The notes beneath the pieces are model-generated. The model did not search any database, was not told the origin of the DNA, and worked only from the letters and a program-made list of their open reading frames with translations. From Bradyrhizobium sp. CIAT3101 (GTDB lineage Bacteria; Pseudomonadota; Alphaproteobacteria; Rhizobiales; Xanthobacteraceae): a stretch of DNA of 64,000 nucleotides. The position numbers and the translations under genes are program-made. Positions 4,616-21,336 of the stretch are shown here, piece after piece (position 1 is the first letter of the stretch; each line of letters opens with the position of its first letter). The stretch covers positions 6,035,001 to 6,099,000 of the forward strand of contig NZ_CP121634.1 in the NCBI RefSeq assembly GCF_029714945.1. Reading direction: 5' to 3'.

Positions 4616-4689
4616 CATCTTCCGGCTGGTAAGCCCTCCGATGAAGCCGAATGTCTGTACTCCCCGACCGACATCTTCGCGTGTGACCA

Positions 4690-4872
4690 CGGCTGACGGC
4701 AGGTCTCCTGGCTCGCGGGTCGTGACCGCTTCGTCGCCTTCCCGGGACCGAGGACCCAGTGGCTTGTGACGAAGGATTCACCGCTTACAGTTGCGGGGGC
4801 AGCTGCGGCATTGGGGACCATGTCCCCGCACCGCATTCCCTTTTCATCCCCTCTCGGGGAAACCGTCAAAGT
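4690..4872 (-). promoter_or_regulatory. Cobalamin riboswitch upstream of the TonB receptor gene
   Basis: Read on the minus strand, this segment contains the conserved landmarks of the adenosylcobalamin aptamer in order: a 5' part with GACGGTT and GATGAAAAGGGAATGCGGTG, the core GCTGCCCCCGCAACTGTAAG, and the 3' B12 box AGCCAGGAGACCTGCC (complement of 4698-4713). About 134 nt separate the B12 box from the GTG start of the receptor gene. By family knowledge cobalamin binding lowers expression. The ends given are approximate. Confidence 0.93.
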
Positions 4873-4954
4873 CATCTAGGGTTACGATCAAGACAGAGTC
4901 AATGTACAAGCTGCGGCGTTATTGCCACAGCGACCAACTTCTTTGGAGATAAGC

Positions 4955-5527
4955 ATGGAAGGCGAGACCTTCCTCTGGCTGATCCGGCATGCGCCGGTCG
5001 AGGGCGTCAAGGGGACGATCCACGCCGCCGACGCGCCCGCAGATCTCGGCGATCGCGTGCAGCTCGAGAAGCTACGACGGTGCTTGCCACGGGATGCGGC
5101 GAGCTATGCGAGCCCTTCGCGACGCACGGCCGAGACGGCGCGCGCGCTGGGGCTCGAGCCTGACCTGCTGCCCGAATTCAGCGAGCAGGATTTCGGCGAC
5201 TGGACCGGCCGGCGCCATGACGAGCTCGCAGCGAACGGCGGCGAGGCCTATGCGCAATTCTGGAGCGATCCGGCGTGCGGGCGGCCGCCCGGCGGCGAGA
5301 GCTTTGAAGAACAAGTCGCGCGCGTGCGGTTGGGCCTTGCGCGGATCGTCGCTCGTCAGGCAGCGCTGATCGTGCATTCCGGCACCATCCGCGCCGCGTT
5401 GTGCATCGCGCTGGATCTGACGCCGCACGCGGCCTTGCGCTTCGTCGTCGATCCGCTGTCGCTGACCCGGATCGACCGGCTCGCGACCGGCTGGCGCGTC
5501 GTCTCGGTCAATCAGCGCGTGGCCTAG
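4955..5527 (+). CDS. cobC: CobC-type histidine phosphatase (alpha-ribazole phosphatase)
   Basis: A 190-residue member of the histidine phosphatase superfamily. It has the phospho-acceptor motif LIRHAP near the N-terminus, SPSRRTAETA, EQDFGDWTG, PPGGES and the late HSGTIRAAL, all in the order seen in CobC. The expected reaction is removal of the 5'-phosphate from alpha-ribazole phosphate (or from cobalamin phosphate) in nucleotide-loop assembly. ATG at 4955 is preferred over the in-frame TTG at 4922 because GGAG at 4945-4948 lies six bases before it. It converges on cobT, and the two stop codons share the palindrome CTAG at 5524-5527. A generic phosphoglycerate-mutase-like phosphatase is possible, but location and motifs favour CobC. 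The name follows Salmonella usage. Confidence 0.8.
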   Translation: MEGETFLWLIRHAPVEGVKGTIHAADAPADLGDRVQLEKLRRCLPRDAASYASPSRRTAETARALGLEPDLLPEFSEQDFGDWTGRRHDELAANGGEAYAQFWSDPACGRPPGGESFEEQVARVRLGLARIVARQAALIVHSGTIRAALCIALDLTPHAALRFVVDPLSLTRIDRLATGWRVVSVNQRVA

Positions 5528-6576
5528 GACGGCCGGTCCGGGACGTTGGCCTGTGCGAACGTCGCCATGTCGTTGTGAAGGCTACAGGCCGAGCGCACCA
5601 GCGGCAGCGCGATCGCAGCGCCCGATCCCTCGCCAAGCCTGAGATCGAGGCTGATCAGCGGCTGCACGTTCAGCGCGCGCAGCACCAGCCGGTGCCCCTG
5701 CTCCGCCGATTGATGCGACGGCAGCAGGAACGGTTGGCACGACGGATTGAGCCGCACCGCCGCGAGCGCCGCGACCGACACGATAAAACCATCGATCAGC
5801 ACGGGAATGCGCGCCTGCGCAGCCGCTATGATCGCGCCCGAGATCGCCGCGATCTCGAGGCCACCGACGGCGCACAGGATCTTCTCGGGCGCCGCACCCG
5901 TAACGCCATGACGCGCGATCGCCCCATCGATCACCCGCGCTTTGTGCGCACGGCCCGCCGCATCCACGCCGGTGCCGTGGCCCGCAATTTCCTCGGCAGC
6001 GACGCCGAGCAGGCTCGCGGCGATCGCCGCCGAGGTCGTGGTGTTGCCGATACCCATCTCGCCGAAGATCAGGAGATCGGGCTGATCGGCCTTCGCCCGC
6101 ACCACTGCGCGCTGTCCCGCCTCGAAGGCGAACGCCAGCTCCGCCGGCGTGAGCGCAGCTTCGACGCTGAAATCGCGCGTGCCAGGGCGTGGCTTGTCGG
6201 TGACGATATCAGGCATCGCCTCTTGTGCCAGCGTTCCGGCGTCGACCACTTCGAGGCTCGAACCGAGCTCGCGCGCCAGCACCGAGATCGCGGCGCCGCC
6301 CGAAGCAAAATTCGCCATCATCGCGATGGTGACGGCCTGCGGATAGGCCGACACGCCCTGCGAGACGATGCCGTGATCGCCGGCAAAGATGATGATCGGC
6401 ACGCGCGCGGCGCGAGGGCGTTCAGTCGCCTGCAAGCCGGCAAGCTCGATCGCAAGCTGCTCGAGCCGCCCAAGCGCGCCGGTCGGCTTTGTCAGTTGTG
6501 TCTGTCGCGCGATCGCCGCATCGCGATGCGCAACGGAGATCTCGGGGCATTTCCGGGTGACCCATTCAGGGAGCAT
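5524..6576 (-). CDS. cobT: Nicotinate-nucleotide--dimethylbenzimidazole phosphoribosyltransferase
   Basis: A 350-residue enzyme that transfers ribose phosphate from nicotinate mononucleotide to 5,6-dimethylbenzimidazole, giving alpha-ribazole phosphate (CobT in Salmonella, CobU in P. denitrificans). Visible motifs are FAGDHGI (about 64-70), the phosphate-binding GEMGIGNTT (172-180), and RLGEGSGAA with the catalytic glutamate at E316, matching E317 of the Salmonella enzyme. ATG at 6576 is chosen because it gives the normal family length and leaves 10 bp after the cobF stop; a longer frame would run into cobF. It is the last gene of the cobL-to-cobT block. BluB, which makes the base used here, is encoded at 26.1 kb. 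Confidence 0.95.
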   Translation of the reverse strand: MLPEWVTRKCPEISVAHRDAAIARQTQLTKPTGALGRLEQLAIELAGLQATERPRAARVPIIIFAGDHGIVSQGVSAYPQAVTIAMMANFASGGAAISVLARELGSSLEVVDAGTLAQEAMPDIVTDKPRPGTRDFSVEAALTPAELAFAFEAGQRAVVRAKADQPDLLIFGEMGIGNTTTSAAIAASLLGVAAEEIAGHGTGVDAAGRAHKARVIDGAIARHGVTGAAPEKILCAVGGLEIAAISGAIIAAAQARIPVLIDGFIVSVAALAAVRLNPSCQPFLLPSHQSAEQGHRLVLRALNVQPLISLDLRLGEGSGAAIALPLVRSACSLHNDMATFAQANVPDRPS

Positions 6577-6586
6577 GCTGCCTCGC

Positions 6587-7336
6587 TTACGGCCTGCGCT
6601 TGAGAATGTAACTGTCCATGATCCAGCCATGCCGCTCGCGCGCCTCGTGTCGTGCGGCAACGATGCGCGGGCCGACCTCGGTGAGCCGGCCGGACATGAT
6701 GATCTGATCGGCCATGCCGAGATAGGCGCCCCACCAGATGTGAAGTCCGGCCGGATCGAGCGACTGGAACGCCGTGCCGCCGTCGAGCATCACGACGACC
6801 GTATCGACGCCCACTGGCCAGCCGCCTTCACGCAAGCGGCGTCCCGTCGTGACCAGAAACGGCTCGCCGATGTCGTTGAGCGGCAGCGCATGCGCCGCGC
6901 ACAGCGTCTGGATCGAGGTGATGCCGGGCACGACCTCGATTTCTGGCAACGGATTGAGCCGCCGCGCGATGCGCAGCGAGGAATCGTACAGCGAGGGATC
7001 GCCCCAGATCAGCAGCGCGACCTTGCCGTCACCACCGAGATGATCAACGATCGACCGCGACCAGGTCGCCGCGACCGCGTCATGCCAATCGTCCACGCCC
7101 TTGCGGTAGTCGGCCTCACCGGCATCGCGCACGGGCAGATCGAACTCGGCGATGCGCGTGGTGCCGTTGGCGAGTACATCCGCGCAGATGGTCCGCCTGA
7201 GATCGGCGAGATCGGATTTTGCCGTCCCCTTGCGTGGGATCAGGACAAGATCGGCGGCGTTGATCGCGCCAATCGCAGCGCGCGTGAGCTGCCCGGGATC
7301 GCCGCAGCCGATGCCGATCAGGGAGAGCGTCATCAT
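6587..7336 (-). CDS. cobF: Precorrin-6A synthase (deacetylating)
   Basis: A 249-residue SAM-dependent tetrapyrrole methylase that methylates C-1 of precorrin-5 and releases acetate, giving precorrin-6A. The start MTLSLIGIGCGDPGQLT, the SAM-pocket region LLIWGDPSLYDSS and the segment EIEVVPGITSIQTL are characteristic of CobF. CobF is specific to the oxygen-dependent pathway and replaces CbiD, so it is a strong marker of the aerobic route. It begins with two ATG codons; the first overlaps the cobA stop in an ATGA arrangement, implying translational coupling. Confidence 0.95.
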   Translation of the reverse strand: MMTLSLIGIGCGDPGQLTRAAIGAINAADLVLIPRKGTAKSDLADLRRTICADVLANGTTRIAEFDLPVRDAGEADYRKGVDDWHDAVAATWSRSIVDHLGGDGKVALLIWGDPSLYDSSLRIARRLNPLPEIEVVPGITSIQTLCAAHALPLNDIGEPFLVTTGRRLREGGWPVGVDTVVVMLDGGTAFQSLDPAGLHIWWGAYLGMADQIIMSGRLTEVGPRIVAARHEARERHGWIMDSYILKRRP

Positions 7337-8064
7337 GACGATCCGTCCTCCGCCAGCGCGCCGAACATGATTACGGCCGCCGTGGAAGCAGCACCGCCAC
7401 GCGCGAGCTGCTCGGCAAGCTCGGCAATCGTGGTGCGCACCAGCCGCTCGTCGGCGCGGCCGAGGGACTCCGCGAACAGCGCCGGCGTATCGGGCGAGAG
7501 CCCGTGCTCGATCAATTTCGCGACCAGCGCCGGAAAGGTGCGCCGACCCATATAGACCACGGTCGTCGCATCAGGATCGGCCAGCGCCGCCCAGTTCAAA
7601 TTCTGCGGCAACTCGCCGGTGACGTCGGCCCCGGTGACGAACTGCACCCGGCGCGAGGTGTGGCGACGGGTCAGGGGAATCCCGGCTTGCGCCGCGGCGA
7701 CGCAGGCCGAGGTGACGCCGGGAACGATCTCATAGCCGATGCCGGCTTCGCGCAGCGTCTCCAGCTCCTCCTCGAGCCGGCCAAAAATGCCGGCATCGCC
7801 AGACTTCAGCCGGACCACGCGCACGCCGGTGGCGGCATAGTCCACGAGCAGGCGATTGACGTGATGCTGTTTTGTCGACGGCCGCCCTGCCCGTTTCCCG
7901 ACCGCGACGAGATTGGCCCCCGGACGCGCCAGATCGAGAATCGCGCCCGAGGCGAGATCGTCATAGAGCACGACGTCGGCCTCGCGCAGCCGCGCGGCGC
8001 CCTTGAGCGTGAGAAGCTCGGGGTCGCCGGGGCCGGCGGAGATGAAGGAGACGAAGCCGCTCAC
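7333..8064 (-). CDS. cobA: Uroporphyrinogen-III C-methyltransferase (SUMT)
   Basis: A 243-residue enzyme that methylates uroporphyrinogen III at C-2 and C-7 to precorrin-2, the entry step of the corrin branch and also the branch point to siroheme. Diagnostic motifs are SAGPGDPELLTLKGA, VLYDDL, RLKSGDAGIFGR and EIVPGVTSA. There is no CysG-type dehydrogenase/ferrochelatase extension, as expected for a dedicated cobalamin enzyme. The start is GTG at 8064, overlapping the cobB stop by four bases (GTGA). Confidence 0.95.
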   Translation of the reverse strand: MSGFVSFISAGPGDPELLTLKGAARLREADVVLYDDLASGAILDLARPGANLVAVGKRAGRPSTKQHHVNRLLVDYAATGVRVVRLKSGDAGIFGRLEEELETLREAGIGYEIVPGVTSACVAAAQAGIPLTRRHTSRRVQFVTGADVTGELPQNLNWAALADPDATTVVYMGRRTFPALVAKLIEHGLSPDTPALFAESLGRADERLVRTTIAELAEQLARGGAASTAAVIMFGALAEDGSS

Positions 8065-9371
8065 CGGTCCTCCGCGATCAGATGGAAGAAGGTGCCAGTC
8101 GCGTGGTCCCGCCGCGAGCCGGTCTCAGCGATGACGGCGCCTGTCGCATCATGCACGACCGCCAGCGGCGTATCGGGCTGGGCGACGATCGTCGAGTAAT
8201 GGAATTCATGACCGCGCAGGCGCGCTCCAACCTGATGGCCCGGCATGGGCGCCGCGAGCGCGGCAAGACGATAGCCGAGATGCATGCGGCGCTTGGCAAA
8301 GCTCGTCTCCAGTCCGAGCAGGCCCGTCATCTCATGACGGAGACCGTCGGCATCGGTCAAGGCAGTCCCCAGCACCATATACCCCCCGCATTCGCCGTGC
8401 ACGGGTCGTGTCTCGGCGAAGGCGCGCAGGCCACTGCGGAAGCGCGCGTTGGCGGCGATCTTGCCGGCATGAAGCTCGGGATAGCCGCCGGGCAGCCAGC
8501 ACACGTCGGCGTTGGCGTCGGGTGCTTCGTCGGCGAGCGGCGAGAAGGTCGAGATTTCCGCGCCCGCCGCGCGCCAGGCTTCCAGCATATGCGGATAGAC
8601 GAAGGAAAACGCGGCATCGCGGGCGAGTGCAATGCGCTGGCCCGGCGGCGTCACGCTCAGGCCGTTTGTCGCTGGTTGCACGGACCACGCGGCTGCGGCT
8701 CGCAGCACCGCGTCGAGATCGACGTGCCCTGAGACAAAGCGCGCGGCCTCGTCGATCAGTTTTCCGATCTCGGCCTGTTCCTCGGCCTGAACTAGGCCGA
8801 GATGCCGCTTCGGCAGGCTGATCTCGGCATGGCGCGGCAGCGCGCCGAACACAGCGATGCCGACGTCATTGAGCGCGCGCCGCACAAGATCCTCGTGGCG
8901 CGGGCTGGCAACGCGATTAAGCACCACGCCGGCAAGGCGCACGCCGGGGCGGTAGTCACGCAGGCCCGCGGCAATCGCCGCGGCTGTTTGCGCCTGTCCG
9001 GAGGGATCGATCACGAGCACCACCGGCCAGCCCAGCATCTCCGCGATGTCGGCGGTGGCGCCGGTGCCGGAAACACCGCGCGTGGCGACGCCGTCGAACA
9101 GGCCCATCGAGCCCTCGGTGAGCACGATGTCGGCATCAGTGCCGCGGCTGATGAGATGCGCGATACTGGCGCGATCCATCGCCCAGCTATCGACATTGAC
9201 GGAGGCGCGCCCCGTGGCTGCGGCATGGAAGGCGGGATCGATATAGTCAGGCCCGCTCTTGAAGCACTGCACGCGTAATCCGCGATTGCGCCAGGCGCGC
9301 GCCAGCGCCAGCGTCAGCGTGGTCTTGCCGACGCCGGAGGCCGGCGCGGAGATGACGAGACCCGCCGGCAT
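8061..9371 (-). CDS. cobB: Cobyrinate a,c-diamide synthase (hydrogenobyrinate a,c-diamide synthase)
   Basis: A 436-residue ATP- and glutamine-dependent amidase acting on the a and c side chains. In the cobalt-late pathway its substrate is hydrogenobyrinic acid and its product feeds CobN. The N-terminal half has the P-loop PASGVGKTT (10-18). The C-terminal class-I glutamine amidotransferase half has WLPGGYPELH and GECGGYMVLG with the nucleophile at C328. ATG at 9371 is preferred to the adjacent GTG at 9374 because GGAGG then lies seven bases upstream. It overlaps the cobM stop. Confidence 0.95.
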   Translation of the reverse strand: MPAGLVISAPASGVGKTTLTLALARAWRNRGLRVQCFKSGPDYIDPAFHAAATGRASVNVDSWAMDRASIAHLISRGTDADIVLTEGSMGLFDGVATRGVSGTGATADIAEMLGWPVVLVIDPSGQAQTAAAIAAGLRDYRPGVRLAGVVLNRVASPRHEDLVRRALNDVGIAVFGALPRHAEISLPKRHLGLVQAEEQAEIGKLIDEAARFVSGHVDLDAVLRAAAAWSVQPATNGLSVTPPGQRIALARDAAFSFVYPHMLEAWRAAGAEISTFSPLADEAPDANADVCWLPGGYPELHAGKIAANARFRSGLRAFAETRPVHGECGGYMVLGTALTDADGLRHEMTGLLGLETSFAKRRMHLGYRLAALAAPMPGHQVGARLRGHEFHYSTIVAQPDTPLAVVHDATGAVIAETGSRRDHATGTFFHLIAEDR

Positions 9372-10153
9372 CACGACGCCTCCGGAAAACGCGGCTCAGT
9401 GCCGACAGGGCGATAGCGGCGGTCGTAGTCGGCGGCATAGAGACGACTCTCGTCGAAATCCGCCGCACCAATCGTCTTGCCCACCAGGATGAGCGCGGTG
9501 CGCTCCATCTCGACGCCGACGGCCGCATCGAGCGTCGCCAGCGTAGCGCGAACAATGCGCTGATCCGGCCAGCTCGCGCGCCAGACGATCGCGACCGGGC
9601 AATCCGTGCCGTAATGCGGCGTCAGCTCGGCGACGACCTTGTCGAGCAGATGAATCGACAGATGAATGGCCAGCACTGCGCCGGTCGCCGCAAAGGCTGC
9701 GAGCTTCTCGCCCTCGGGCATTGCGCTGGCGCGGCCCGGTGTGCGCGTCAGCACCACCGTCTGGGCAAGACCGGGCAATGTCAGCTCGGCCTCGATAGCC
9801 GCTGCGGCCGCCGAGAACGACGGCACGCCAGGTGTCACCGTGAAAGGAATGCCGAGCGCACGGAGGCGGCGAAGCTGCTCGCCCATCGCTGACCAGATCG
9901 AGAGATCGCCGGAATGCAGCCGCGCGACGTCCTTGCCCTCCGCATGCGCGGCCGTGATCTCCGCGATGATCTCGTCGAGCGACAGAGGCGCGGTGTTGAC
10001 GATGCGCGCACCGTTCGGGCAATGCGCCAGCACGCCCTCGGGCACCAGCGAGCCCGCATAGAGGCAGACCGGACAGGACGCGATGAGATCGCGCCCCCGC
10101 AAGGTGAGAAGATCGGCGGCGCCCGGCCCGGCGCCGATGAAATGCACCGTCAT
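9371..10153 (-). CDS. cobM: Precorrin-4 C11-methyltransferase
   Basis: A 260-residue tetrapyrrole methylase that converts precorrin-4 to precorrin-5. It starts [20 protein letters not shown] and carries [19 protein letters not shown] and [13 protein letters not shown], all typical of CobM/CbiF. The ATG at 10153 was chosen because the family's conserved N-terminal strand starts there; upstream in-frame sequence is only out-of-frame cobE. It overlaps cobE (ATGA) and cobB, so it belongs to a tightly coupled operon. Confidence 0.95.
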
Positions 10154-10518
10154 GGACCGTCTCCTTCCGCGATCGCCGCGGTCGCGGTGCGATCCTGCGA
10201 GACCGCGCGCGGTGCGATGAGCCGCGCGCGTGGGCCGGCGGCGGCGAGCGCCGCCGCTTCGGCAACCGATCCCGTGCCGAACTTTTCGGCGACCAGCTGC
10301 GACTGCGTCGGCGTCGCGATACCGGCCAGCATGTCGGCAGCGATGGCCTTGATTGGAACGCCACACTCGTGCGCGAGCAATTTCAGTGCCTCGGCATCAG
10401 CCTTGTCGCTGACGGTTGCCACGGCCGCGAGGCCATCGGCACCGCCCGCCGCCGCAAGCGCATCGCGTAACGAGGCGAGCGTAACATCTTTTTTGAATCC
10501 GAGCCCGGCGACCTTCAT
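10150..10518 (-). CDS. cobE: CobE / CbiG C-terminal-like cobalamin biosynthesis protein
   Basis: A 122-residue protein matching the CbiG C-terminal domain family. It starts [20 protein letters not shown] and continues with the conserved run of short strands around [17 protein letters not shown]. CobE is required for aerobic B12 synthesis, and family work suggests it binds or hands on a corrin intermediate rather than doing chemistry. It lies between cobL and cobM, the place CobE usually takes, with four-base overlaps on both sides. The start at 10518 gives the expected length. Function beyond pathway membership is inferred. Confidence 0.85.
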
Positions 10519-11696
10519 CGGACCGCACTCCACTGCACCACCGGCCGCACGGCCTCCCAGGAGCGATAGCGGCCGAGCGGAGCGGCATGCGCAATCTCGA
10601 CCCGCATCAGCTCGCCGCCATACTGCTGATGCAGCTCGCCGAGCAGCGCTTCCGTCTCCAGCGTCACCGAATGTGCAACCAGCCGGGCGCCCGGCGCAAG
10701 CCGCGCCCAAATTGCATCGAACATCGCACGATCGAGACCGCCACCGACGAAGACGGCGTCGGGCACATCCAGCGTTACGAGCGCTTCCGGCGCCTGTCCC
10801 GTGACGACGGTGATCCGATGCGCCAATCCGTACGTCGCAGCATTGCTGCGGATGTTCGCGACGCGATCCTCTCGGATCTCAACGGCGATCGCAGTTCCTC
10901 CGCACATCGCCCACTCCACCGAGATCGAGCCGGAACCAGCACCGATGTCCCACAGACGCTCACCGGAACGCGGCGCCAGGGCCGAGAGCGCGAGCGCGCG
11001 CACCGGCCGCTTGGTGATCTGGCCGTCGTGAACAAAGAGATCGTCCGAAAGTCCGGAGCTGCGAGGAATGCTCTGCCCGCCCCTCGCCTCAATTGCGACC
11101 GCAACGAGGTTTCCCGCGAGATCGCCCACAAGGCGGTCCGCACGATGCTCTGCAATACTTTCGCGCGGCCCGCCGAGCGCTACGAGGCTCCAGAATGCCG
11201 AGGCGCCCCATCCGCGACCGCTCAGCCATCTTGCGAGATCGCCGGCAGCCTTGCCGTCGCGCATAAGACAAAGGATCCGCGCGCCCGGAGCCAGATGCGG
11301 CGCGAGACGCTCGAATGGCGCAGCATGAAGCCCGAGGCAGACAACGGATTCGAGCCGCCAGCCCAGCCGCGCGGCGGCGAGCGAGAAGGTCGATGGTGCG
11401 GAGTACGCAATCCACTCACCAGCAGCCAATTTCTCGGCGAGGCCCGCTCCGGCGCCATGCCAGAACGGATCGCCGGAAGCGAGCACCGCCGTCGGCCGGC
11501 CGCGGCAGCTCAGCACGATGTCAGCATCGAACGGCACCGGCCACGCGCGGCCGCGGTCGCCGACATCCGCGAGCGCGAGATGACGCTCGCCGCCGAACAC
11601 GGTTTCCGCGTTAGCCAGCGCCTTTCGACTTGCTTCCGACAGCCCGGCAAGGCCATCTTCGCCGATACCGATGATGGTCAGCCAGGGATCAACCAT
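10515..11696 (-). CDS. cobL: Precorrin-6B C5,15-methyltransferase (decarboxylating)
   Basis: A 393-residue fusion of a CbiE-like methylase (about 1-210, starting WLTIIGIGEDGLAGLS) and a CbiT-like methyltransferase/decarboxylase (about 220-393, with the SAM loop LWDIGAGSGSISVEWA). It methylates C-5 and C-15 and removes the C-12 acetate carboxyl to give precorrin-8X. Its ATG (complement of 11694-11696) overlaps the start codon of cobK on the other strand. No promoter space of its own exists outside cobK. It is the first gene of the cobL-to-cobT block. Confidence 0.95.
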   Translation of the reverse strand: MVDPWLTIIGIGEDGLAGLSEASRKALANAETVFGGERHLALADVGDRGRAWPVPFDADIVLSCRGRPTAVLASGDPFWHGAGAGLAEKLAAGEWIAYSAPSTFSLAAARLGWRLESVVCLGLHAAPFERLAPHLAPGARILCLMRDGKAAGDLARWLSGRGWGASAFWSLVALGGPRESIAEHRADRLVGDLAGNLVAVAIEARGGQSIPRSSGLSDDLFVHDGQITKRPVRALALSALAPRSGERLWDIGAGSGSISVEWAMCGGTAIAVEIREDRVANIRSNAATYGLAHRITVVTGQAPEALVTLDVPDAVFVGGGLDRAMFDAIWARLAPGARLVAHSVTLETEALLGELHQQYGGELMRVEIAHAAPLGRYRSWEAVRPVVQWSAVR

Positions 11697-12441
11697 GATG
11701 CGCGCCCTTATTCTGGGCGGAATTGCCGATGCGAGCCTGCTCGCCGCCGAGATCGCGCACGCGGGGATTGACGCCGTGTACTCCTACGGCGGCCGTACAC
11801 GGATGCCTGCCGATCAACCGCTGCCGACCCGCATCGGCGGCTTCGGCGGCGTGAGCGGGCTTGTCGATTACATCAGGCGCGAAGCCATCACGCATGTGAT
11901 CGACGCGACGCATCCCTTCGCAGCCGAGATGAGCCGCAATGCCGTTGAGGCGTGCGCGAACACCGGCACGCCGCTGATCGCGCTCGAGCGCGCGCCCTGG
12001 ACCAGCGCACCTGGCGACAAGTGGATTGAAACCGGGGATGTCAACGCCGCGGCCGCTGCCCTTCCCGAAGCGCCCGCACACGTGTTCCTCGCCATCGGCC
12101 GTCAGCACATCGCGCCGTTCGCGGCGAAGACGCAGCACGCCTACACGCTGCGCTTCGTCGATCCGCCCGAAGCGCCGCTGCCCTTCACTGCCGATGTACT
12201 CGTGTCGCGCGGGCCGTTCACACTCGACGGCGAGCTCGACATGATGCGCAAGCGCGGCATCGATTGGGTCGTCGCCCGCAATTCCGGCGGCGACGGCGCG
12301 CGCGCCAAGATCGATGCCGCCCGTAGGCTCGGCCTGCCCGTGATCATGATCTCGCGACCAACGCTGCCGAAGCGGCTGCGGGTGGAGAGCGTCGCTGAAG
12401 TGATGCAGTGGCTCGCTCATGGCGACCGCCTCGGCGCATAG
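11695..12441 (+). CDS. cobK: Precorrin-6A reductase
   Basis: A 248-residue NAD(P)H-dependent reductase converting precorrin-6A to dihydro-precorrin-6A. The N-terminus MRALILGGIADASLLAAEI, the middle VIDATHPFAAEMS and the C-terminal pattern ARNSGG then LPVIMISRP are diagnostic of CobK/CbiJ. Two ATGs occur in tandem (11695 and 11698); the first is taken because AGGG at 11684-11687 is then seven bases away. The gene is alone on the plus strand. Its 3' end overlaps cobJ by 25 bp and its start overlaps the cobL start codon, so it is wedged between the two leftward cob blocks without any intergenic DNA. Confidence 0.93.
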   Translation: MMRALILGGIADASLLAAEIAHAGIDAVYSYGGRTRMPADQPLPTRIGGFGGVSGLVDYIRREAITHVIDATHPFAAEMSRNAVEACANTGTPLIALERAPWTSAPGDKWIETGDVNAAAAALPEAPAHVFLAIGRQHIAPFAAKTQHAYTLRFVDPPEAPLPFTADVLVSRGPFTLDGELDMMRKRGIDWVVARNSGGDGARAKIDAARRLGLPVIMISRPTLPKRLRVESVAEVMQWLAHGDRLGA

Positions 12442-13151: not shown

Positions 13152-13879
13152 TCGGCAGCGTCCGGATGCCGGCCTTTGCCGTGCACGAGAACGATCGCGA
13201 AGTACGGACAATCGGCGGCATCGATCTCGACGAGCCGCGCGACGCGTTCGCCCGGCATGGTGCCGCGCTCGACCAGCCAGGCATCATCGAGCCGGCCGGC
13301 GGACGCGAGCGCGCGGCGCACCTTTGCGAGATTGCGGCCGGTCTTCATGATCACGAGCGCGTCGGAATCGCGCATGCGCCTTTCGAGCTCGGCCTCGGGA
13401 AGCGTGCCCATCAGCACCGTCGTCACGTCGTCGCCAAGCGCGATCGGTTGTCCCACCCCGTTCCAGCAGCCGACCATGCCGGGAATACCGGCGATCACCT
13501 CGATCTCGACGCGGCCTTGCAGGCGCGTGTGCAGATGCATGAAGGAGCCGTAGAAATAGGGATCGCCTTCGCAGAGCACGACGACATCGACGGCGCGGGC
13601 CAGTCGCGCGAGGCGTTCGGCCCATTCGTCGTAAAAGCCGGCCAGCAGCTGGACGTAGTCCGGGCTGTCGAAAGCGAGCTCGGTCGTGACCGGATATTCC
13701 ATGGGATATTCGGTGACGTCGGTCGCCAGCATACCCTCGACGATGCGCCGCGCCTGACCCGGCCGGCCCTTCTTGCGGAAATAGGCGACGTGCTTCGCGC
13801 CGCGCACGGTGCGATCGGCGCGCAAGCTCATCAGATCGGGATCGCCAGGGCCGAGACCGCAGCAGATGATCCGTCCCAT
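13148..13879 (-). CDS. cobI: Precorrin-2 C20-methyltransferase
   Basis: A 243-residue tetrapyrrole methylase that adds the C-20 methyl to precorrin-2, giving precorrin-3A. The sequence starts MGRIICCGLGPGDPDLMSLR, and VVLCEGDPYFYGSFMHL and EVIAGIPGMVGCWNGVG are typical for CobI. The ATG at 13879 follows the cobH stop after two bases. The order cobH-cobI-cobJ keeps consecutive or cooperating methylation steps together. Confidence 0.95.
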   Translation of the reverse strand: MGRIICCGLGPGDPDLMSLRADRTVRGAKHVAYFRKKGRPGQARRIVEGMLATDVTEYPMEYPVTTELAFDSPDYVQLLAGFYDEWAERLARLARAVDVVVLCEGDPYFYGSFMHLHTRLQGRVEIEVIAGIPGMVGCWNGVGQPIALGDDVTTVLMGTLPEAELERRMRDSDALVIMKTGRNLAKVRRALASAGRLDDAWLVERGTMPGERVARLVEIDAADCPYFAIVLVHGKGRHPDAAE

Positions 13880-13881
13880 CT

Positions 13882-14511
13882 CTATTCGCTCCGGCTTGCG
13901 AGCGCGTTCACGGCGGCGACCGTAATCGCGGAGCCGCCGAGGCGGCCTTCGACCGTCAGTGCCGGCACCGGCGGATCGGCCATCAGCGCAGCCTTGGATT
14001 CGGCCGCACCGACGAAACCGACGGGGCAGCCGATGATCGCCGCGGGCCGCGGACAGTCGCGGTCCTCGAGCATGTTGAGCAGATGAAACAGCGCCGTCGG
14101 CGCATTGCCGATCGCGACGATCGCACCGTGGAGATGCGGCCGCCACAGCTCCAGCGCCGCGGCCGAACGCGTGTTGCGCATGGACTGCGCCAGCGCGGGA
14201 ACGGTCTCGTCACCAAGCGTGCAGATGACGGCGTTGGCCGCGGGCAACCGCGCGCGCGTAATTCCCTCCGAGACCATGCGCGCATCGCACAGGATCGGCG
14301 CGCCCTTCTGCAACGCCGCGCGCGCGGCGGTGGCCATCCCCGGCGTGAAGCGGATGTACGTCTCCAGGCCAACCATGCCGGCGGCATGGATCATCCGCAC
14401 CACGACCTGCTCCTCATCAGGCGCGAAGCGCGCCAGATCGGCCTCGGCCCTGATGGTCGCGAAGGATTGCCGGTAGATCGCCGCGCCGTCGGTCTCATAT
14501 GTGTGCGGCAT
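13882..14511 (-). CDS. cobH: Precorrin-8X methylmutase
   Basis: A 209-residue isomerase that shifts the C-11 methyl to C-12, giving hydrogenobyrinic acid, the first stable corrin of the aerobic route. The catalytic histidine is expected at H42 in VRMIHAAGMVG. Further family signatures are APILCDARMVSEGI, GNAPTALFHL and IGCPVGFVGAAESK. Length is normal. Its start codon overlaps the cobG stop by one base (TGATG). Confidence 0.95.
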   Translation of the reverse strand: MPHTYETDGAAIYRQSFATIRAEADLARFAPDEEQVVVRMIHAAGMVGLETYIRFTPGMATAARAALQKGAPILCDARMVSEGITRARLPAANAVICTLGDETVPALAQSMRNTRSAAALELWRPHLHGAIVAIGNAPTALFHLLNMLEDRDCPRPAAIIGCPVGFVGAAESKAALMADPPVPALTVEGRLGGSAITVAAVNALASRSE

Positions 14512-15671
14512 CAGTGCCCTCCCATCAGGATGGAGGGATCGCGAACGATGTCGTCACGGTCGAGCCCGCGCAGGATCGGCTCATCGCGCGTCGACCCGCC
14601 GCGCACGAGATCGAATCCTGCGCCCGTCGCGACCAGCGTGATCGCGGCTGCACCGGAATGGGCGCAGCCCTTGGCGCAGCCCGAGACGTGAAGCCGCGAG
14701 GCTGCGCCGATGTTCGGCGCCAGCGCCGCGGCAAGCGCGCGGGTGTCGGCATGCGCCTCGCGGCAACGCGGCGCGCCGCTGCAGGCGATGACGCGCAGCG
14801 CCGGATCGTAGGCCTCCGTGATCAGGCCGGACGCGGACGGCATCGTCCGCTCGCCCTCGCTCAGGACCATCCGCCACGGCGTCATCCGCAGCGCGTGCCC
14901 GCAGCCGGAAAGCTGATTGAGCGTCGCATGTGGCATCTGCCCGAAGGCAACGCCGACCATGGCCCCTTGCGGATAAAGGCCGGGACGCACGGCTGCCATG
15001 ATGGGCGCAGGCTCCGCCTCACCACGCAGCACTTCGGGCAATTTCGCGCCGGCCGCAAGATGCGTTGCCATCCGCCCTCGTCCATCCCTGACGCCGGACG
15101 CGACGAACCAGCGTGCAACAGCAAGCGCGGTCGCCACGGCCTCGCCACGTGCAACGCTGCGGCCGAACCTGGCGCCGTCCGGGCGCACAAGGAGGCGGCC
15201 GACGGCGTCACGCTCGATCCGCACGTCAGCGGAATTGCCGGCGAGCACGCGCGACTTGCCGTCATCGATGGCGAAGCCGAATTTCGTCGGCAGCTCGAGC
15301 ATCGAGTCTGCCAACGCTTCTTCGAGCTCGGCCGCAAGTGCCTGGGTCTCGTCGCCGTCGCGCCAGAACGGCGTGACCAGGATGTTGCGCCGGGATTCGG
15401 TGTCGGCGTCAGGGTCCAGCAGCGTCAGTTGCGCCAGACCATCAAGCAGCAGCCGGTGGCTGCTCTCGCTGACGCCCCTGATCTGGAGATTGGCGCGGCT
15501 GGTCACGTCGATCAGACCATTGCCGTGGCGCTCGGCAAGATGCGCAAGCCCGGCGGCCTGTGCCGCATCGATCCGGCCGCCGAACGGGCGCACGCGGACC
15601 ACGAGCCCGTCGCCCGATTGCATCGGCCGCAGCGCGCCGGGACACCAGCCCTTCACCGAAGCCGCGCTCAT
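14511..15671 (-). CDS. cobG: Precorrin-3B synthase (Fe-S monooxygenase)
   Basis: A 386-residue protein of the nitrite/sulfite reductase ferredoxin-like family that hydroxylates precorrin-3A at C-20 using O2 and forms the lactone precorrin-3B. Two ferredoxin-like half domains are visible (SRANLQIRGV near 58-66; the second in the C-terminal half). The 4Fe-4S cysteines appear as C297-x5-C303 (CSGAPRC) and C332-x3-C336 (CAKGC). CobG is specific to the oxygen-dependent pathway. It overlaps cobN by four bases (ATGA). Confidence 0.95.
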   Translation of the reverse strand: MSAASVKGWCPGALRPMQSGDGLVVRVRPFGGRIDAAQAAGLAHLAERHGNGLIDVTSRANLQIRGVSESSHRLLLDGLAQLTLLDPDADTESRRNILVTPFWRDGDETQALAAELEEALADSMLELPTKFGFAIDDGKSRVLAGNSADVRIERDAVGRLLVRPDGARFGRSVARGEAVATALAVARWFVASGVRDGRGRMATHLAAGAKLPEVLRGEAEPAPIMAAVRPGLYPQGAMVGVAFGQMPHATLNQLSGCGHALRMTPWRMVLSEGERTMPSASGLITEAYDPALRVIACSGAPRCREAHADTRALAAALAPNIGAASRLHVSGCAKGCAHSGAAAITLVATGAGFDLVRGGSTRDEPILRGLDRDDIVRDPSILMGGH

Positions 15672-18600
15672 GACGCCTCCTTCAGCGCAGCCGCAATCGA
15701 GTTGCGGCGCGTTCGCCAGAGCGAGGCCTCATGCAGGCGCGTAAAGCAGGTCTCCATCGCGGCCAGCGCCGCCGGATTTTCGCGCGCCATGAAGGCACGG
15801 ATTTCGGCATCGCCGAGCGTCGCGTCATAGTAGAGATCGAACAGATGCGGCGGCACCGCGCCGGCGAGATGGGCGAAGGCGGCCATGTGCTCCAGCGTTG
15901 CGGTGATTTCGGCGGCGCCGCGAAAGCCGTGGCGCATCATGCCGGCGATCCAGGCCGGGTTGGCGGCGCGCGCACGGACCACGCGCGAGATTTCTTCCGT
16001 CAGCGTGCGCGCATGCGGCTGCTCAGGGCGGGTCGTATCGAGATGATAGAGCGATGGTCCGGCAGCACCGAGATGGGCAGCAGCAGCCGCGATGCCTGCT
16101 TCATGCGCGGCATAGTCGGCGGCGAGCAGCAGATCGGTTTCCGGCAGATCCTGCACGTGAACGAACGCATCGGCGGATGCGAGCCGCTGCTCGATGCCGG
16201 CGCGATCGGGCTTGATCTCCCCATCGGCCGAGAACGCCCACGACGATGCCGACAGCCAGGCCTCGCCGGCGGCATCGCGCGTCTCGGGCGTGAACGCATC
16301 GGGGATCGCCGAGAGGCCGACGCCGTATTGCCCGGGCCGCGGCGCGAACACGCGGGAGGCGCGGTGGCGATAGGGATTTTCCTCGCCCTCCTCCTCGCGC
16401 GATGCCAGCGCTTCGGTGGCGGCTCCGAACAATTGCGCAAGGCCTGCGAAGACATCGCGGAACAGGCCTGACACGCGCAGCGTAACGTCGATGCGAGGAC
16501 GGCCGAGTTCGGCCGGCGCGATGATGTCGTAGCCGGTGACGCGGCCGGAGGCGTGATCCCAGCGCGGCGCGAGACCGGCGAGATGCAGCGCCATCGCGAA
16601 TTCTTCGCCTGCGGTCCGCATGGTCGCGGAGCCCCAGAGATCGACCACGAGGCCCTTCGGCCAATCGCCGTGATCCTGCAGATGGCGGCGCAACAGCTCT
16701 TCGGCGAGTTTTATCCCCTGTGCATGCGCCGGCGGCGTCGGCACGGCGCGCGGATCGACGGCAAAGAGATTGCGTCCCGTCGGCAGCACGTCATGACGCC
16801 CGCGATAGGGCGCGCCAGATGGGCCGGGCGCAACGCGCTGCCCCCCAAGCGCGGCAAGCAATGCGTCCCGCTCGGCGTCGCCGCAGTCACCGCGACCGAA
16901 CACATGCAGACCGTCGCCGAACTGGCTTTCCTTGAGATCGCAAACGAAGCGGTCGATCCGCGGGATCGCTTCGGCCGGAGCCGCCGAGGCATCAAGCCCG
17001 AGATCGTCTTCGAGGCCGGCTGCGCGCGCCTCCTCGCGGATCGCGGCGATCAGGCGCTGGCGACGGGCGGGATCGAGACCATCGGCGGTCGAATACTCGT
17101 CGAGCAGGCGTTCCAGCCGACGCAGGCCTTCCGGCACCGCGGATTGCGCGAGCGGCGGCGGCAGATGGCCGATGGTGACGGCGCCGATGCGCCGCTTGGC
17201 CTGCGCGGCCTCACCGGGATCGTTGACGATGAAGGGATAGATGACGGGCAGATCGCCGATCAGCGCTTCCGGCCAGCAGCTTGCGGACAGCGCCACGGAT
17301 TTTCCCGGCAGCCATTCCAGCGTGCCGTGCGCCCCCATGTGCACGACGGCATCACACCCCTGCCCGCGGAGCCAAAGATAGAACGCGACATAGGCATGAC
17401 GCGGCGTGCGGGCGAGATCGTGGTAGTCGGAATCGCGTGTCGTCGCATCGCCGCGCTCGGCTTGGACCGCGAAGATCGATTGGCCGCAGGCAATCGCGGC
17501 GAAGTGGAATGCGCCATCGCGGCAGCTCGGATCGCTCTCCGGCGCGCCCCACGCTTGCGCGAGATCGTCCTGCAGGCCCTGAGGAAGACGCGCGAGCATC
17601 GCGCGGTACGCGGCGACGCTCCAGCTCAGATGCTGGTTCAGCAACGTCTCGCCCAGCGCACGGACCGGCGCGACATCGAAGCCGGCCTCAGCGAGATCGG
17701 CCACCATCGCCTCGACCGAGGCAAGCGCGTCGAGACCGACCGCATGCGCGATCTGGTGCGGACGTCCGGGATAGTTCGAGAGCACAATGGCCAGCCGCTT
17801 CTCGGCGGCCGGTGTCTCCGCAAGCCGCCGCCAGGCCGCAACGCGGGCGGCGATGGCATTCACGCGCTCCTCGTCCGGCTGATGCGCCAGATGCGAGAAC
17901 TGCAGATCCGGATCGCGCGCGGCAGCCGATTTGAAACTCACCACGCCCGCGAACAGCCGGCCGTCGACCTCGGGCAGAACCACATGCATCGCGAGGTCAC
18001 CGGGCGACAGGCCGCGCAGCGACTCCGCCCAATCCTCACGGCGCGCCGATGAGAGCGCGACCTGGAACACCGGACATGACGCGGCATCGAACGGCGTCGT
18101 GCCGTCGTCGCCCATCGCCGAGAACGCCGTCGCATTGACGATCGCAGCCGGAGGATTCTTGGCGAGATGGTCCCGCAACCAATCTGCGACGCCCGCAGCC
18201 TTCAGCGAGGTCACGAACACGCCGTGCGCGTCAAAGCCCTTCTCGCGCAGAGCAGCGATCAGTGCATCGACCGGGCCGGTGTCCGCGGCGGTGAGATAGG
18301 AGCGATAGAACGTCACCAGCGCGCGCGGCTTTCCTTCGCCCGTCAACGGCGCGGCGATCACGCCACGTGCGGGATCGTAGAAACCCATCTCGGGCACGTT
18401 CATCTCGCCGACGACGGGCCCGGCATAGAGACCCGAGGCCAGCGCGAGCTGCGCGATCGCGGCTTGCGCCGCAACGGGACCACCGGTGTCGCAGAGCACT
18501 TTCAGCCGGCGCAGCGTCGAGACCGGCAAGGTGGAGTACGCATCGAGCCGCGTGTCGTCGCGACCATCGGCCGGCAGCACGGCGAGCACGATGTTGCGAT

Positions 18601-18916
18601 CTCTTGCCAGCTGCTGGAGCGCCGCGAGGCCATAGGGCCAATAGGACTCACCGCCGATCAGCCGCACCAGAATGCCGCGCGCCTGCGACAGCGTGCGCTC
18701 GACATAGGTATCGACCGAGAGGGGATGACGGAGCTCCGCGAGGTTCGCCAGGCGCAGCGACGGCAGGCTGTTGCGGCCGCGCCGCCAGCCGGCCGCAAAC
18801 GCCGCCAGATCGGAATCCGAGTACGAGAGCACCACGAGATCGGCCGGGTCCTGGCCGATGTCCCTTGGCGTCGCGGTCTCTTCCAGACCGCGGCTCTCGC
18901 GGAAGACGACGTGCAT
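15668..18916 (-). CDS. cobN: Cobaltochelatase large subunit
   Basis: A 1,082-residue CobN/BchH-family subunit that binds hydrogenobyrinate a,c-diamide and, with an AAA-ATPase pair (CobS and CobT in P. denitrificans naming), inserts cobalt. Diagnostic stretches are MGAHGTLEWLPGKSVALS in the middle, PVIYPFIVNDPGEAAQAKRR just after it, and the C-terminal TLEHMAAFAHLAGAVPPHLF. It is shorter than the roughly 1,275-residue P. denitrificans protein; no frameshift is apparent. The start codon overlaps the cobW stop by one base. Genes for the two small chelatase subunits are not in this window. Confidence 0.95.
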   Translation of the reverse strand: MHVVFRESRGLEETATPRDIGQDPADLVVLSYSDSDLAAFAAGWRRGRNSLPSLRLANLAELRHPLSVDTYVERTLSQARGILVRLIGGESYWPYGLAALQQLARDRNIVLAVLPADGRDDTRLDAYSTLPVSTLRRLKVLCDTGGPVAAQAAIAQLALASGLYAGPVVGEMNVPEMGFYDPARGVIAAPLTGEGKPRALVTFYRSYLTAADTGPVDALIAALREKGFDAHGVFVTSLKAAGVADWLRDHLAKNPPAAIVNATAFSAMGDDGTTPFDAASCPVFQVALSSARREDWAESLRGLSPGDLAMHVVLPEVDGRLFAGVVSFKSAAARDPDLQFSHLAHQPDEERVNAIAARVAAWRRLAETPAAEKRLAIVLSNYPGRPHQIAHAVGLDALASVEAMVADLAEAGFDVAPVRALGETLLNQHLSWSVAAYRAMLARLPQGLQDDLAQAWGAPESDPSCRDGAFHFAAIACGQSIFAVQAERGDATTRDSDYHDLARTPRHAYVAFYLWLRGQGCDAVVHMGAHGTLEWLPGKSVALSASCWPEALIGDLPVIYPFIVNDPGEAAQAKRRIGAVTIGHLPPPLAQSAVPEGLRRLERLLDEYSTADGLDPARRQRLIAAIREEARAAGLEDDLGLDASAAPAEAIPRIDRFVCDLKESQFGDGLHVFGRGDCGDAERDALLAALGGQRVAPGPSGAPYRGRHDVLPTGRNLFAVDPRAVPTPPAHAQGIKLAEELLRRHLQDHGDWPKGLVVDLWGSATMRTAGEEFAMALHLAGLAPRWDHASGRVTGYDIIAPAELGRPRIDVTLRVSGLFRDVFAGLAQLFGAATEALASREEEGEENPYRHRASRVFAPRPGQYGVGLSAIPDAFTPETRDAAGEAWLSASSWAFSADGEIKPDRAGIEQRLASADAFVHVQDLPETDLLLAADYAAHEAGIAAAAAHLGAAGPSLYHLDTTRPEQPHARTLTEEISRVVRARAANPAWIAGMMRHGFRGAAEITATLEHMAAFAHLAGAVPPHLFDLYYDATLGDAEIRAFMARENPAALAAMETCFTRLHEASLWRTRRNSIAAALKEAS

Positions 18917-19950
18917 CAGACTCCCAATCCCGCCTTGATCGCGGCCTCATCGATATCGCCGTGCTCGCCGATCACGACGAGCTTCGATTGCCTGCCGCCC
19001 GCGCCCCAGGGCTTGTCGAACTGGTGGCGCACGCGCTCGCCGACCGCCTGCAGCAGCAGGCGCATCGGCTTGCCCGCCACTGCGATGTAGCCCTTGGCGC
19101 GCAGCACGTTCTGCTCGCGGGCCAGCTTCTGGACGGATGCGACCAGCGCATCGACGTCAGTCACTTCAGGCAGATCAATCACGACCGAAGCAAAATCGTC
19201 GTGCTCGTGCTCTTCCTCGCCGTCATGGTGCGAGGGGCGCGCGGCGAGATCGTTCTCGGCGGCGGCGCCGAGACCAAGAATGACGCGCGCGTCGATCGCG
19301 CCGTCGGTGATGGGCAGCATCGGCACGCGGCGCGGCATCTCGGCGGTAATCAGCGCCTTGGCGGCCTCGATGCCGGCGCTGCCGGCCAGATCGGCCTTGG
19401 TCAGCAGCACGATATCGGCACAGGCGATCTGGTCTTCGAACACCTCCGACAGCGGCGTCTCGTGATCGAGATTTTCGTCGGCCGCGCGCTGTGCTTCGAC
19501 AGCAACCGGATCCGGCGCGAAGCGACCGGCGGCGACAGCCTCGGCATCGGCCAGTGCGATCACGCCGTCGACCGTGATCCGCGAGCGGATCTCCGGCCAG
19601 TCGAACGCCTTCAGCAGCGGCTTCGGCAGAGCCAGCCCCGAGGTCTCGATCAGGATGTGATCGGGCCTCACCGGCCGCGCCAGCAGCTTCTCCATGGTCG
19701 GAATGAAGTCGTCGGCGACGGTGCAGCAGATGCAGCCGTTTGCGAGCTCGACGATGTTCTCCTCCGGGCAGTTCGCATCGGCGCAGGACTTCAGGATCTC
19801 GCCGTCGACGCCCTCGCTGCCGAACTCGTTGACGAGCACCGCGAGCTTCTTGCCGTTGGGATTGCTGAGCAGATGCTGGATCAGCGTGGTCTTGCCAGAG
19901 CCGAGAAAACCGGTGACGACCGTCACAGGGACTTTTGCGAGCGAATTCAT
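18916..19950 (-). CDS. cobW: CobW-family G3E GTPase (metallochaperone)
   Basis: A 344-residue P-loop GTPase of the COG0523 family. It has Walker A GFLGSGKTT (14-22), the metal-binding CICC motif (73-76 in NGCICCT), the guanine-specificity motif TKAD (about 184-187), and a histidine/acid-rich loop HHDGEEEHEHDD (241-252) before the CobW C-terminal domain. CobW is needed for aerobic B12 synthesis and is thought to deliver cobalt to the chelatase; it lies directly before cobN, which fits. ATG at 19950 is chosen because it immediately precedes the conserved VPVTVVTGFLGSG segment. It overlaps the DUF1636 gene by four bases (ATGA). Confidence 0.94.
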   Translation of the reverse strand: MNSLAKVPVTVVTGFLGSGKTTLIQHLLSNPNGKKLAVLVNEFGSEGVDGEILKSCADANCPEENIVELANGCICCTVADDFIPTMEKLLARPVRPDHILIETSGLALPKPLLKAFDWPEIRSRITVDGVIALADAEAVAAGRFAPDPVAVEAQRAADENLDHETPLSEVFEDQIACADIVLLTKADLAGSAGIEAAKALITAEMPRRVPMLPITDGAIDARVILGLGAAAENDLAARPSHHDGEEEHEHDDFASVVIDLPEVTDVDALVASVQKLAREQNVLRAKGYIAVAGKPMRLLLQAVGERVRHQFDKPWGAGGRQSKLVVIGEHGDIDEAAIKAGLGV

Positions 19951-20321
19951 TCGGCGGCCTCCGGCAACACGGCAATGGGGGGAATGCGGGCAAGCGACTG
20001 CTTGCGAAAGATTTCCGGCCGACTGCGCCAGGGCACGAGGCCGTCGGGCGCGGCGGCATAGGCGACAGCGCCCGCGACCACGTCCTGCGCGTTGGCATCC
20101 GACAGCCGGCCATAGACATAGGACCAGCGGCCGGGCGCGCTCAGCGCGACCGAGCAGCCCTGGCTGCATGCAGACAGGCATTCGACGGGAACCACATTGA
20201 CACCGTCGGGCACGCCGGCCTCGAGGATCGCACCATGCAGACGCTTGCCGGGCGTAACCTCGCCCTCGCCAAGCGTCTGGCCGGCGCGGCAGGTGATGCA
20301 GACATGCAGTGTGACGGTCAT
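19947..20321 (-). CDS. DUF1636 five-cysteine protein, cobW partner of unknown function
   Basis: A 124-residue protein starting MTVTLHVCITCRAG. It has five cysteines in the spacing C8-x2-C11 and C48-x3-C52-x3-C56 (CLSACSQGC), reminiscent of thioredoxin-like 2Fe-2S ferredoxins, plus a C-terminal WRSRPEIFRKQS segment. This matches the DUF1636 family, which has no assigned function. It is the first gene after the second cobalamin riboswitch and is coupled to cobW by ATGA. The ATG at 20321 follows GAAGAGG, which can be sequestered by an upstream complementary run. A role in metal or electron delivery for cobalt insertion is inference. Confidence 0.85.
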   Translation of the reverse strand: MTVTLHVCITCRAGQTLGEGEVTPGKRLHGAILEAGVPDGVNVVPVECLSACSQGCSVALSAPGRWSYVYGRLSDANAQDVVAGAVAYAAAPDGLVPWRSRPEIFRKQSLARIPPIAVLPEAAE

Positions 20322-20322
20322 C

Positions 20323-20357
20323 GCCTCTTCCAGAAGTAACAGCGGGAGGCGAAGAGG
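20323..20357 (-). promoter_or_regulatory. Ribosome-binding-site sequestering hairpin of the second cobalamin riboswitch
   Basis: On the minus strand GCCTCTTC (complement of 20350-20357) is perfectly complementary to GAAGAGGC (complement of 20323-20330), an eight-base-pair stem with a 19-nt loop. The second arm is the Shine-Dalgarno sequence for the DUF1636 ATG at 20321. No U-run follows. This fits a translational expression platform. Confidence 0.6.
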
Positions 20358-20431
20358 CTCACGAACCTTCTCTGCGAAGGCCCGTTTCCCCGTCGCGGAA
20401 CACCCCGTCCGCCGGTCCAAAAATCGTCCGC

Positions 20432-20640
20432 GCTGGCAGGTCTCCCGGCTTGCGGAGCAGGGTTTCCCCTTCGATCCCCGCCTTCCCGATCCGCAAGTAG
20501 GATCAGTGGCTTTGGGCATCTCTCCGGTCACGGTCGCGGGGGCGGCTGCAGTTTGGACCCAAATCTTGCCGATTCGGACCCTATCGCATTCCCTCTTCGC
20601 CTGTCATAGGACAGGAACCAACGCCGGGTCACCATTTGCC
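20432..20640 (-). promoter_or_regulatory. Cobalamin riboswitch upstream of the DUF1636-cobW-cobN operon
   Basis: On the minus strand the segment shows, in order, GGCGAAGAGGGAATGCGATAG, the core GCCGCCCCCGCGACCGTGACC and the B12 box AAGCCGGGAGACCTGCC (complement of 20435-20451). The core reads CGCGACCGT where the consensus has CGCAACTGT, a mild deviation. About 113 nt separate the B12 box from the first start codon. Its 5' end lies within about 40 bp of the divergent cobO start. The outer limits are approximate. Confidence 0.92.
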
Positions 20641-20677
20641 CCCGGCCGCCTCTTGTCAAGCCGAAGGACCCTGTCAG

Positions 20678-21313: not shown

Positions 21314-21336
21314 CGACGCCAAGCTCTGAAAAAACC

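Follow-up and report, generated by a model that had tools for sequence, protein, structure and literature searches.

In Staphylococcus aureus, the part of PMC7154746 that treats the menE-menC-MW1733-ytkD-MW1731 locus describes it as a noncontiguous operon, with an inner gene on the opposite strand to which the long RNA would be antisense, and for Dickeya dadantii 83 noncontiguous operon units are reported in the passages concerned of PMC9239193. Two further systems resemble such an arrangement in part: rli39/aspocR of Listeria, where a B12 riboswitch stands before an RNA antisense to a B12-related gene (touched on in PMC7154746), and laoB of Escherichia coli, a frame that shows signs of translation and runs antisense to a known gene (PMC5810103, in the sections on that gene). 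How an operon crosses an antisense gene is an open problem for the noncontiguous-operon idea. Rho ends untranslated RNA, and an untranslated antisense RNA is thus expected to be terminated. Here we analyze a 64,000-nt stretch of the Bradyrhizobium sp. CIAT3101 genome (the window), in which cobK, the gene for precorrin-6A reductase, lies antisense inside a cluster of cobalamin (cob) genes headed by a cobalamin riboswitch. Opposite cobK runs a reading frame, the bridge frame, that starts on the stop codon of the preceding gene, ends at the start of the following one, and is kept free of stop codons across many genera. From these sequence patterns we consider it probable that the cluster is a riboswitch-led operon of ∼15 kb that is interrupted by the antisense cobK and bridged across it by translation.

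Gene identities in the window were taken from curated NCBIfam models, apart from cobE, which was recognized by a match to the CbiG C-terminal domain family. On the minus strand the order is riboswitch, DUF1636 gene, cobW, cobN, cobG, cobH, cobI and cobJ, then cobL, cobE, cobM, cobB, cobA, cobF and cobT. The locus thus has cob genes downstream of an RF00174 aptamer in the same orientation, as in a cobalamin-riboswitch operon, and an opposite-strand gene within a run of co-directional operon genes, as in a noncontiguous operon. The first-pass annotation had placed cobK antisense within this cluster, and its coordinates were right: cobJ (12417-13151, minus strand), the last gene ahead of the antisense gene, ends at 12417, cobL (10515-11696, minus strand) starts at 11696, and cobK (11695-12441, plus strand; conserved ATG start at 11695 within the open reading frame 11671-12441) shares 25 bp with cobJ and 2 bp with the start of cobL. 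The first-pass annotation had not picked up the bridge frame on the minus strand. Its ATG (12420-12418) forms an ATGA with the TGA of cobJ, and from there it runs, codon-aligned with cobK, for 243 codons (11689-12420) to a stop at 11691-11689, 8 nt inside cobL. A Shine-Dalgarno-like GAGGCGG, read by eye, precedes the bridge start (12426-12432, minus strand), and that of cobL, AAGGG (11705-11709), lies inside cobK. With the bridge frame included, the junctions from the DUF1636 gene to cobF are all overlaps of 1-8 nt, except for a 2-nt gap between cobH and cobI, and the cobJ-bridge and bridge-cobL junctions resemble the other short-overlap junctions of this operon.

Since antisense frames are often open through codon bias, the bridge frame was put to separate tests in genomes that share the gene order cobL<cobK>cobJ< (layout A), found in 114 alphaproteobacterial genomes. 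The antisense stops correspond to the cobK codons TTA, CTA and TCA, and their expected number was derived from the codon usage of the other cob genes of the same locus. In the 30 close genomes, of which 29 belong to the window's genus and one to genus g67, no such codon was seen in cobK where 28.8 were expected, and in the 84 other genomes 35 were seen against 100.7 expected, with 29 of these 35 in two low-GC genomes, G316 and G364. Other A-ending cobK codons were not avoided, with observed/expected ratios (O/E) of 1.01 in the close genomes and 0.91 in the others. Avoidance was also missing where cobK has other neighbors: cobK beside cbiD contained 224 antisense stops against 191.5 expected (O/E 1.17, 60 genomes), and cobK co-directional with its upstream gene contained 70 against 67.1 (O/E 1.04; 17 genomes, 16 of them outside the class). 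Control genes of layout A loci gave ratios, in the 30- and 84-genome sets, of 1.09 and 1.14 for cobJ, 2.13 and 1.31 for cobL, and 0.64 and 0.83 for cobI; those with values from the 84-genome set only were cobM (1.01), cobH (1.19), cobA (1.02), cobB (0.94) and cbiD (0.65, 9 genomes). The lowest control ratios are thus those of cobI and cbiD, with the remaining controls between 0.94 and 2.13. The two other antisense frames across cobK held 660 and 611 stops in the 114 genomes, where shuffled codons gave 800 and 457. Counting one genome per genus, the frame was open in 41 of 47 genera against 20.5 expected (P 2.9e-15 if the genera are independent).

Denser sampling of two genera gave 167 layout A entries, or 161 genomes after removal of 6 duplicates, and the bridge frame is intact in 154 of these. 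The in-phase triplet that covers the cobJ stop is ATG in 110 of these frames, GTG in 36, TTG in 4, CTG in 3 and TTA in 1. A TGA stop of cobJ in this phase restricts the cobK codon to CAN, which encodes His or Gln. The start site falls inside cobK in 39 genera, and the CobK residue there is His in 35 of them and Gln in 2; the two kinds of codon are near-equal in number in the cobJ and cobL genes of these loci (2079 for His and 1897 for Gln), and the aligned position in CobK proteins encoded beside cbiD is mostly occupied by other residues, with no conservation of His. Shine-Dalgarno-like matches of at least 4 bases precede the bridge start in 27 of 47 genera, as against 17.3% of control positions inside cobJ. 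At the other end, in 150 of the 154 intact frames, no more than 20 nt separate the bridge stop from a candidate cobL start. Among the 30 close genomes it overlaps the cobL start identically in 27, as TGA in 19, TAA in 6 and TAG in 2, and in the remaining 3 a TGA stands 5 nt before a TTG candidate cobL start; residues 2 and 3 of cobL vary (nine pairs) and the place of the stop stays. A stop in another frame near the cobL start is likewise conserved in all 30, so that one conserved stop proves little by itself.

Could the frame be an accident of high-GC codon bias, in a layout that is a functionless inherited relic? Codon usage alone would leave about 20.5 of the 47 genera open, and the layout falls in nearly one clade: a CobK tree of 199 rows gathers 99 of its 100 layout A rows into a single 107-row clade with 99% support, so that the layout probably arose once and was then kept. 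Its orientation could also derive from an antisense cbiD-cobK pair that is still present in relatives. Against an accident, openness, start codon and stop position are all off expectation, cobK beside cbiD shows no such avoidance, and the codon counts give no sign that these cobK genes avoid rare codons in general. This reading was already disfavored, and we regard it as very improbable.

Annotated records from named organisms agree with the genome survey. Ten were picked from 271 plasmid records with a cobK match, and the eight that have layout A and an annotated cobJ were counted; the frame is intact in all eight (Bradyrhizobium, Paracoccus, Sphingobium, Methylorubrum, Sinorhizobium, Rhizobium, Pseudosulfitobacter and Sphingopyxis), and among the seven with an annotated cobL start, its overlap with that start is exactly 8 nt in six and 26 nt in one. 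The two records left uncounted are Methylibium, with no cobJ listed and 0 antisense stops in cobK, and Azotobacter, with a co-directional cobK that has 2. In the larger sample, the seven genomes without an intact frame fall into distinct cases. Four of the seven losses (G070, G140, G072 and G577) accompany an insertion that breaks the gene chain, as a bridging role predicts: ∼1 kb between cobK and cobL in G070, and ∼1.3 kb, ∼0.8 kb and 43 bp between cobJ and cobK in G140, G072 and G577. In G685 a stop of the frame falls on the first aligned codon of cobK, close to a cobL start, and G316 and G364 are genomes of low GC (0.44 and 0.40) in which the frame is lost.

Several of these results weigh against an operon bridged by translation. 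G316 and G364 lost the frame yet keep the layout, which means that the bridge is not indispensable everywhere, and outside the class the layout A frame is kept in only one of three genomes (G619, and not G481 or G485). Codon bias by itself would leave 20.5 of the 47 genera open, and because there are several candidate cobL starts per gene, the closeness of the frame end to one of them, which carries no P value, is modest evidence.

The conserved start, open frame and stop are what an antiparallel overlapping protein gene would also show, and a true overlapping gene whose functional protein shares its DNA with cobK is a rival reading of them. A protein search with the bridge frame found 43 relatives, among them three that Bradyrhizobium records list as hypothetical protein, and BLOSUM similarity scores of the antisense product lie slightly above expectation in all three genera compared, which favors a protein a little. 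Two of the 43 relatives are labeled with Pfam families (PF02571 and PF00590), perhaps because they overlap the neighboring genes. A change that is silent in cobK replaces the antisense amino acid in more than 90% of cases, and such changes are not scarce (O/E 0.96, 1.22 and 1.09 in the three genera), contrary to what purifying selection on the antisense amino acids would produce. The product has no match in NCBIfam or Pfam, and an AlphaFold2 model built with 42 sequences is unfolded, with a mean predicted local distance difference test score (pLDDT) of 39.7 and a predicted template modeling score (pTM) of 0.12. Because silent changes are not scarce and neither family nor fold was found, selection seems to keep the frame open and not its amino-acid sequence, and a protein-coding function for this frame, disfavored on these grounds, is quite improbable.

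If the two halves of the cluster formed separate transcripts, signals that separate them should lie between cobJ and cobL. The first-pass annotation had seen no terminator hairpin after cobJ; a simple scan concurred, with no minus-strand match between the cobJ stop and the cobL start, in a search of positions 5000-21500 whose 7 matches equal the shuffled mean of 7.0. Across layout A, the ends of cobJ and cobK overlap in 103 of 114 genomes (median 25 bp), and terminator-like hairpins were found after cobJ in 2 of 114 loci and after cobK in 0 of 114, compared with 2 of 454 control pieces inside genes. With overlapping ends and scarce hairpins, each of the two mRNAs has to extend into the opposing gene, at a minimum through the overlap. 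Rfam gave no match in this region in 40 layout A loci, and none in 17 other loci, 16 of which have cbiD beside cobK. A riboswitch lies 3-20 kb upstream of the first half in at least 31 of 44 layout A genomes; among the matches listed for these genomes, 8 have no riboswitch within 25 kb and 5 have one elsewhere. The Rfam scans of these loci replaced a B12-box pattern scan that recovered only 2 of 5 known riboswitches. The simple scan of positions 5000-21500, for sigma-70 consensus and terminators, gave matches at chance level only and was set aside in favor of conservation at synonymous sites.

A first operon might instead stop at cobJ, with the second half expressed from a promoter inside cobK and the frame translated only from that RNA or another antisense RNA. 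Antisense start sites are common in B. japonicum, as stated in the portion of PMC4842269 on start sites, and in the window's genus few synonymous changes occur at cobK codons ∼180-219 (12232-12351). This block has P values of 0.0064 and 0.023 in windows of 25 and 15 codons with 21 genomes, and of 0.017 and 0.07 with 30 genomes; two other genera that were tested have no conserved block within cobK. Nearer to cobL, codons 11-60 of cobK, the expected promoter site for a leader of 20-40 nt, show normal synonymous variation (O/E 0.91-1.01 in 21 genomes of the window's genus), which counts against a cobL promoter there, and the conservation of codons 1-10 (O/E 0.55) is expected given their overlap with the cobL start. 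A start codon placed on the cobJ stop, moreover, makes most sense with ribosomes that come from cobJ. A shared promoter in a gap between cobK and cobL was also considered; in the window's genus most loci lack such a gap, which led to its rejection there. Of the two possibilities that the first-pass annotation had left standing, a cobL promoter inside cobK therefore finds no support near cobL, and as a full explanation of the locus we judge it unlikely. The other, a riboswitch transcript that continues across cobK to cobL and the genes after it, is strongly if indirectly supported by a frame that appears selected for its start, openness and stop, together with the missing separating signals.

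A bridged operon would work as follows. Polymerase that has passed the cobalamin riboswitch would transcribe cobW to cobJ, then the strand opposite cobK, and then cobL, cobE, cobM, cobB, cobA, cobF and cobT. Overlaps of the ATGA type occur in translational coupling, and ribosomes that end cobJ would restart at the overlapping ATGA, read ∼243 codons of arbitrary sequence on the way across cobK, terminate where cobL begins and start again on that gene. While on the antisense stretch they would shield the RNA from Rho termination, and the same translation would hand ribosomes to cobL, thereby coupling cobJ to cobL, with cobK itself made from a plus-strand RNA that would have its own promoter inside cobL. 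The long RNA may also lower the expression of cobK, as such RNAs do to the inner gene of other noncontiguous operons, where mutual control can act by polymerase collision or RNase III. More generally, we think it likely that bacteria can cross an antisense gene by a bridge frame of free sequence that is coupled to both neighbors through start-stop overlaps and serves only to carry ribosomes, to shield the RNA from Rho and to deliver ribosomes to the next gene, with selection acting on missing stops and not on a protein. This locus thereby suggests an answer to how an operon crosses an antisense gene, one that is kept in most of the sampled genera (41 of 47) and that single cobK-silent changes could test. 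If it is true, some frames called hypothetical proteins are translated for translation's sake, and B12 riboswitch control could reach seven further cob genes across a reversed gene.

Whether cobK might be expressed from within cobL was approached through synonymous conservation at the 5′-end of cobL. The window's genus, represented by 21 genomes, conserves cobL codons at synonymous sites over positions 1-10 (O/E 0.33) and 11-28 (O/E 0.53), and the promoter and ribosome-binding site of cobK probably lie inside these first 28 codons (11613-11696, read on the plus strand). By eye, this stretch holds weak consensus matches at TTGCTT (11630-11635) and CATCTT (11654-11659), and a predicted leader of ∼28 nt with AGGG (11684-11687) 7 nt before the ATG. 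Leaders in B. japonicum are usually 20-40 nt, according to the part of PMC4842269 that gives leader lengths. In a second genus, codons 15-37 of cobL are conserved, and by our own reading of the alignment a codon ending in TA is retained where the residue alternates between Leu and Val. Other observations speak against such a control region: a third genus, g274, has no conserved block at the cobL 5′-end, and cobN codons 2-37, cobB codons 5-41 and cobT codons 2-32 (the last in 6 genomes only) are also synonymously conserved with no antisense neighbor. For these reasons, and with hexamers that match weakly, the cobK promoter is only suggested by the data. The exact start of cobK varies as well, since its first ATG is ATA in 4 of the 30 closest loci (L009, L012, L019 and L022); in the window, a further in-frame ATG lies 24 bp upstream of the start at 11695.

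The neighborhood of cobK was surveyed in 204 alphaproteobacterial genomes and 19 others of the phylum, a sample that is uneven and leans to the window's genus and family. Both flanks of cobK were recognized in 149 of the 204 alphaproteobacterial genomes, and one or none in 55. In 144 of the 149, and not in the other 5, cobK, alone or with a same-strand cbiD, opposes both flanking genes; this is too consistent for chance, and antisense cobK is the usual layout throughout the Alphaproteobacteria. Next to layout A, a second order, cobA or cobB<cbiD>cobK>cobM< (layout B), occurs in 23 genomes, and the gene ahead of cobK proved to be CbiD in all 5 proteins examined. Clusters of the cbiD type (such as those of L131, L135, L138 and L188) carry cbiD and cobK together as an opposite-strand unit of two genes, in many cases with cobA and cobM on either side, and a lone antisense cobK may be the remnant left after cobF replaced cbiD. 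Three alphaproteobacterial genomes (L072, L074 and L257) have cobA<cobK>cobL>, with a co-directional cobL after cobK, and in genus g274 cobK stands before cobQ, outside the usual cluster, in 4 of 30 loci (L311-L340). Among the 19 genomes outside the class, 3 have layout A, and in 16 cobK is co-directional with its upstream gene. A layout peculiar to Bradyrhizobium was dropped once it had been found class-wide, and for the same reason the first-pass view of a local curiosity undescribed for B12 loci was too narrow; overlaps of these genes had also been reported in Ensifer, in the passages of PMC4070679 on its cob cluster. The direction of cobK is likely to be named in older literature, and we do not claim its orientation as new.

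In the window, the riboswitch that leads the cluster (Rfam RF00174, E 3.2e-25) occupies 20418-20637 on the minus strand, as do all of the following genes. The first gene after it, the DUF1636 gene (19947-20321), which the first-pass annotation had not named, is followed by cobW (18916-19950), cobN (15668-18916), cobG (14511-15671), cobH (13882-14511) and cobI (13148-13879), which leads into cobJ. Beyond cobL lie cobE (10150-10518), cobM (9371-10153), cobB (8061-9374), cobA (7333-8064), cobF (6587-7336) and cobT, a phosphoribosyltransferase gene with an uncertain start codon (5524-6576). Downstream of the cob cluster, a second cobalamin riboswitch (4681-4882, minus strand) stands before a TonB-dependent receptor gene (2206-4563, minus strand). 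Elsewhere in the window, an open reading frame of 5535 codons (28506-45113, minus strand) has 999 C-terminal and 1666 N-terminal residues with no Pfam match at E 0.01.

Literature searches returned no account of a translated frame across cobK, with two older papers on these genes outside that search. The closest description of the genes themselves concerns the cob clusters of Ensifer and Pseudomonas denitrificans SC510, where neighboring pairs among cobH, cobI, cobJ, cobK and cobL overlap; the portion of PMC4070679 that reports this says nothing on an antisense frame or on read-through. Compared with laoB, which the relevant sections of PMC5810103 argue to be a protein gene with a phenotype, the amino acids of the cob bridge seem free to change. 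The same text mentions translational coupling via short same-strand overlaps in operons. The cob junctions are alike in this respect, but the middle frame that they couple is no conserved protein; it is a gene's complement. In Listeria rli39/aspocR, as described in part of PMC7154746, the antisense RNA is a regulator, whereas the antisense stretch of the cob locus would join two halves of a coding operon. The nearest relative is the S. aureus noncontiguous operon, whose antisense part is described in that source as an internal untranslated region; in the cob locus, by contrast, the corresponding stretch is kept open and start-stop coupled at both ends, with co-transcription inferred. The sequence evidence for a kept, translatable frame speaks against an untranslated antisense part here, and the cob locus would thus represent a variant of the noncontiguous operon in which the reversed gene is crossed by ribosomes.

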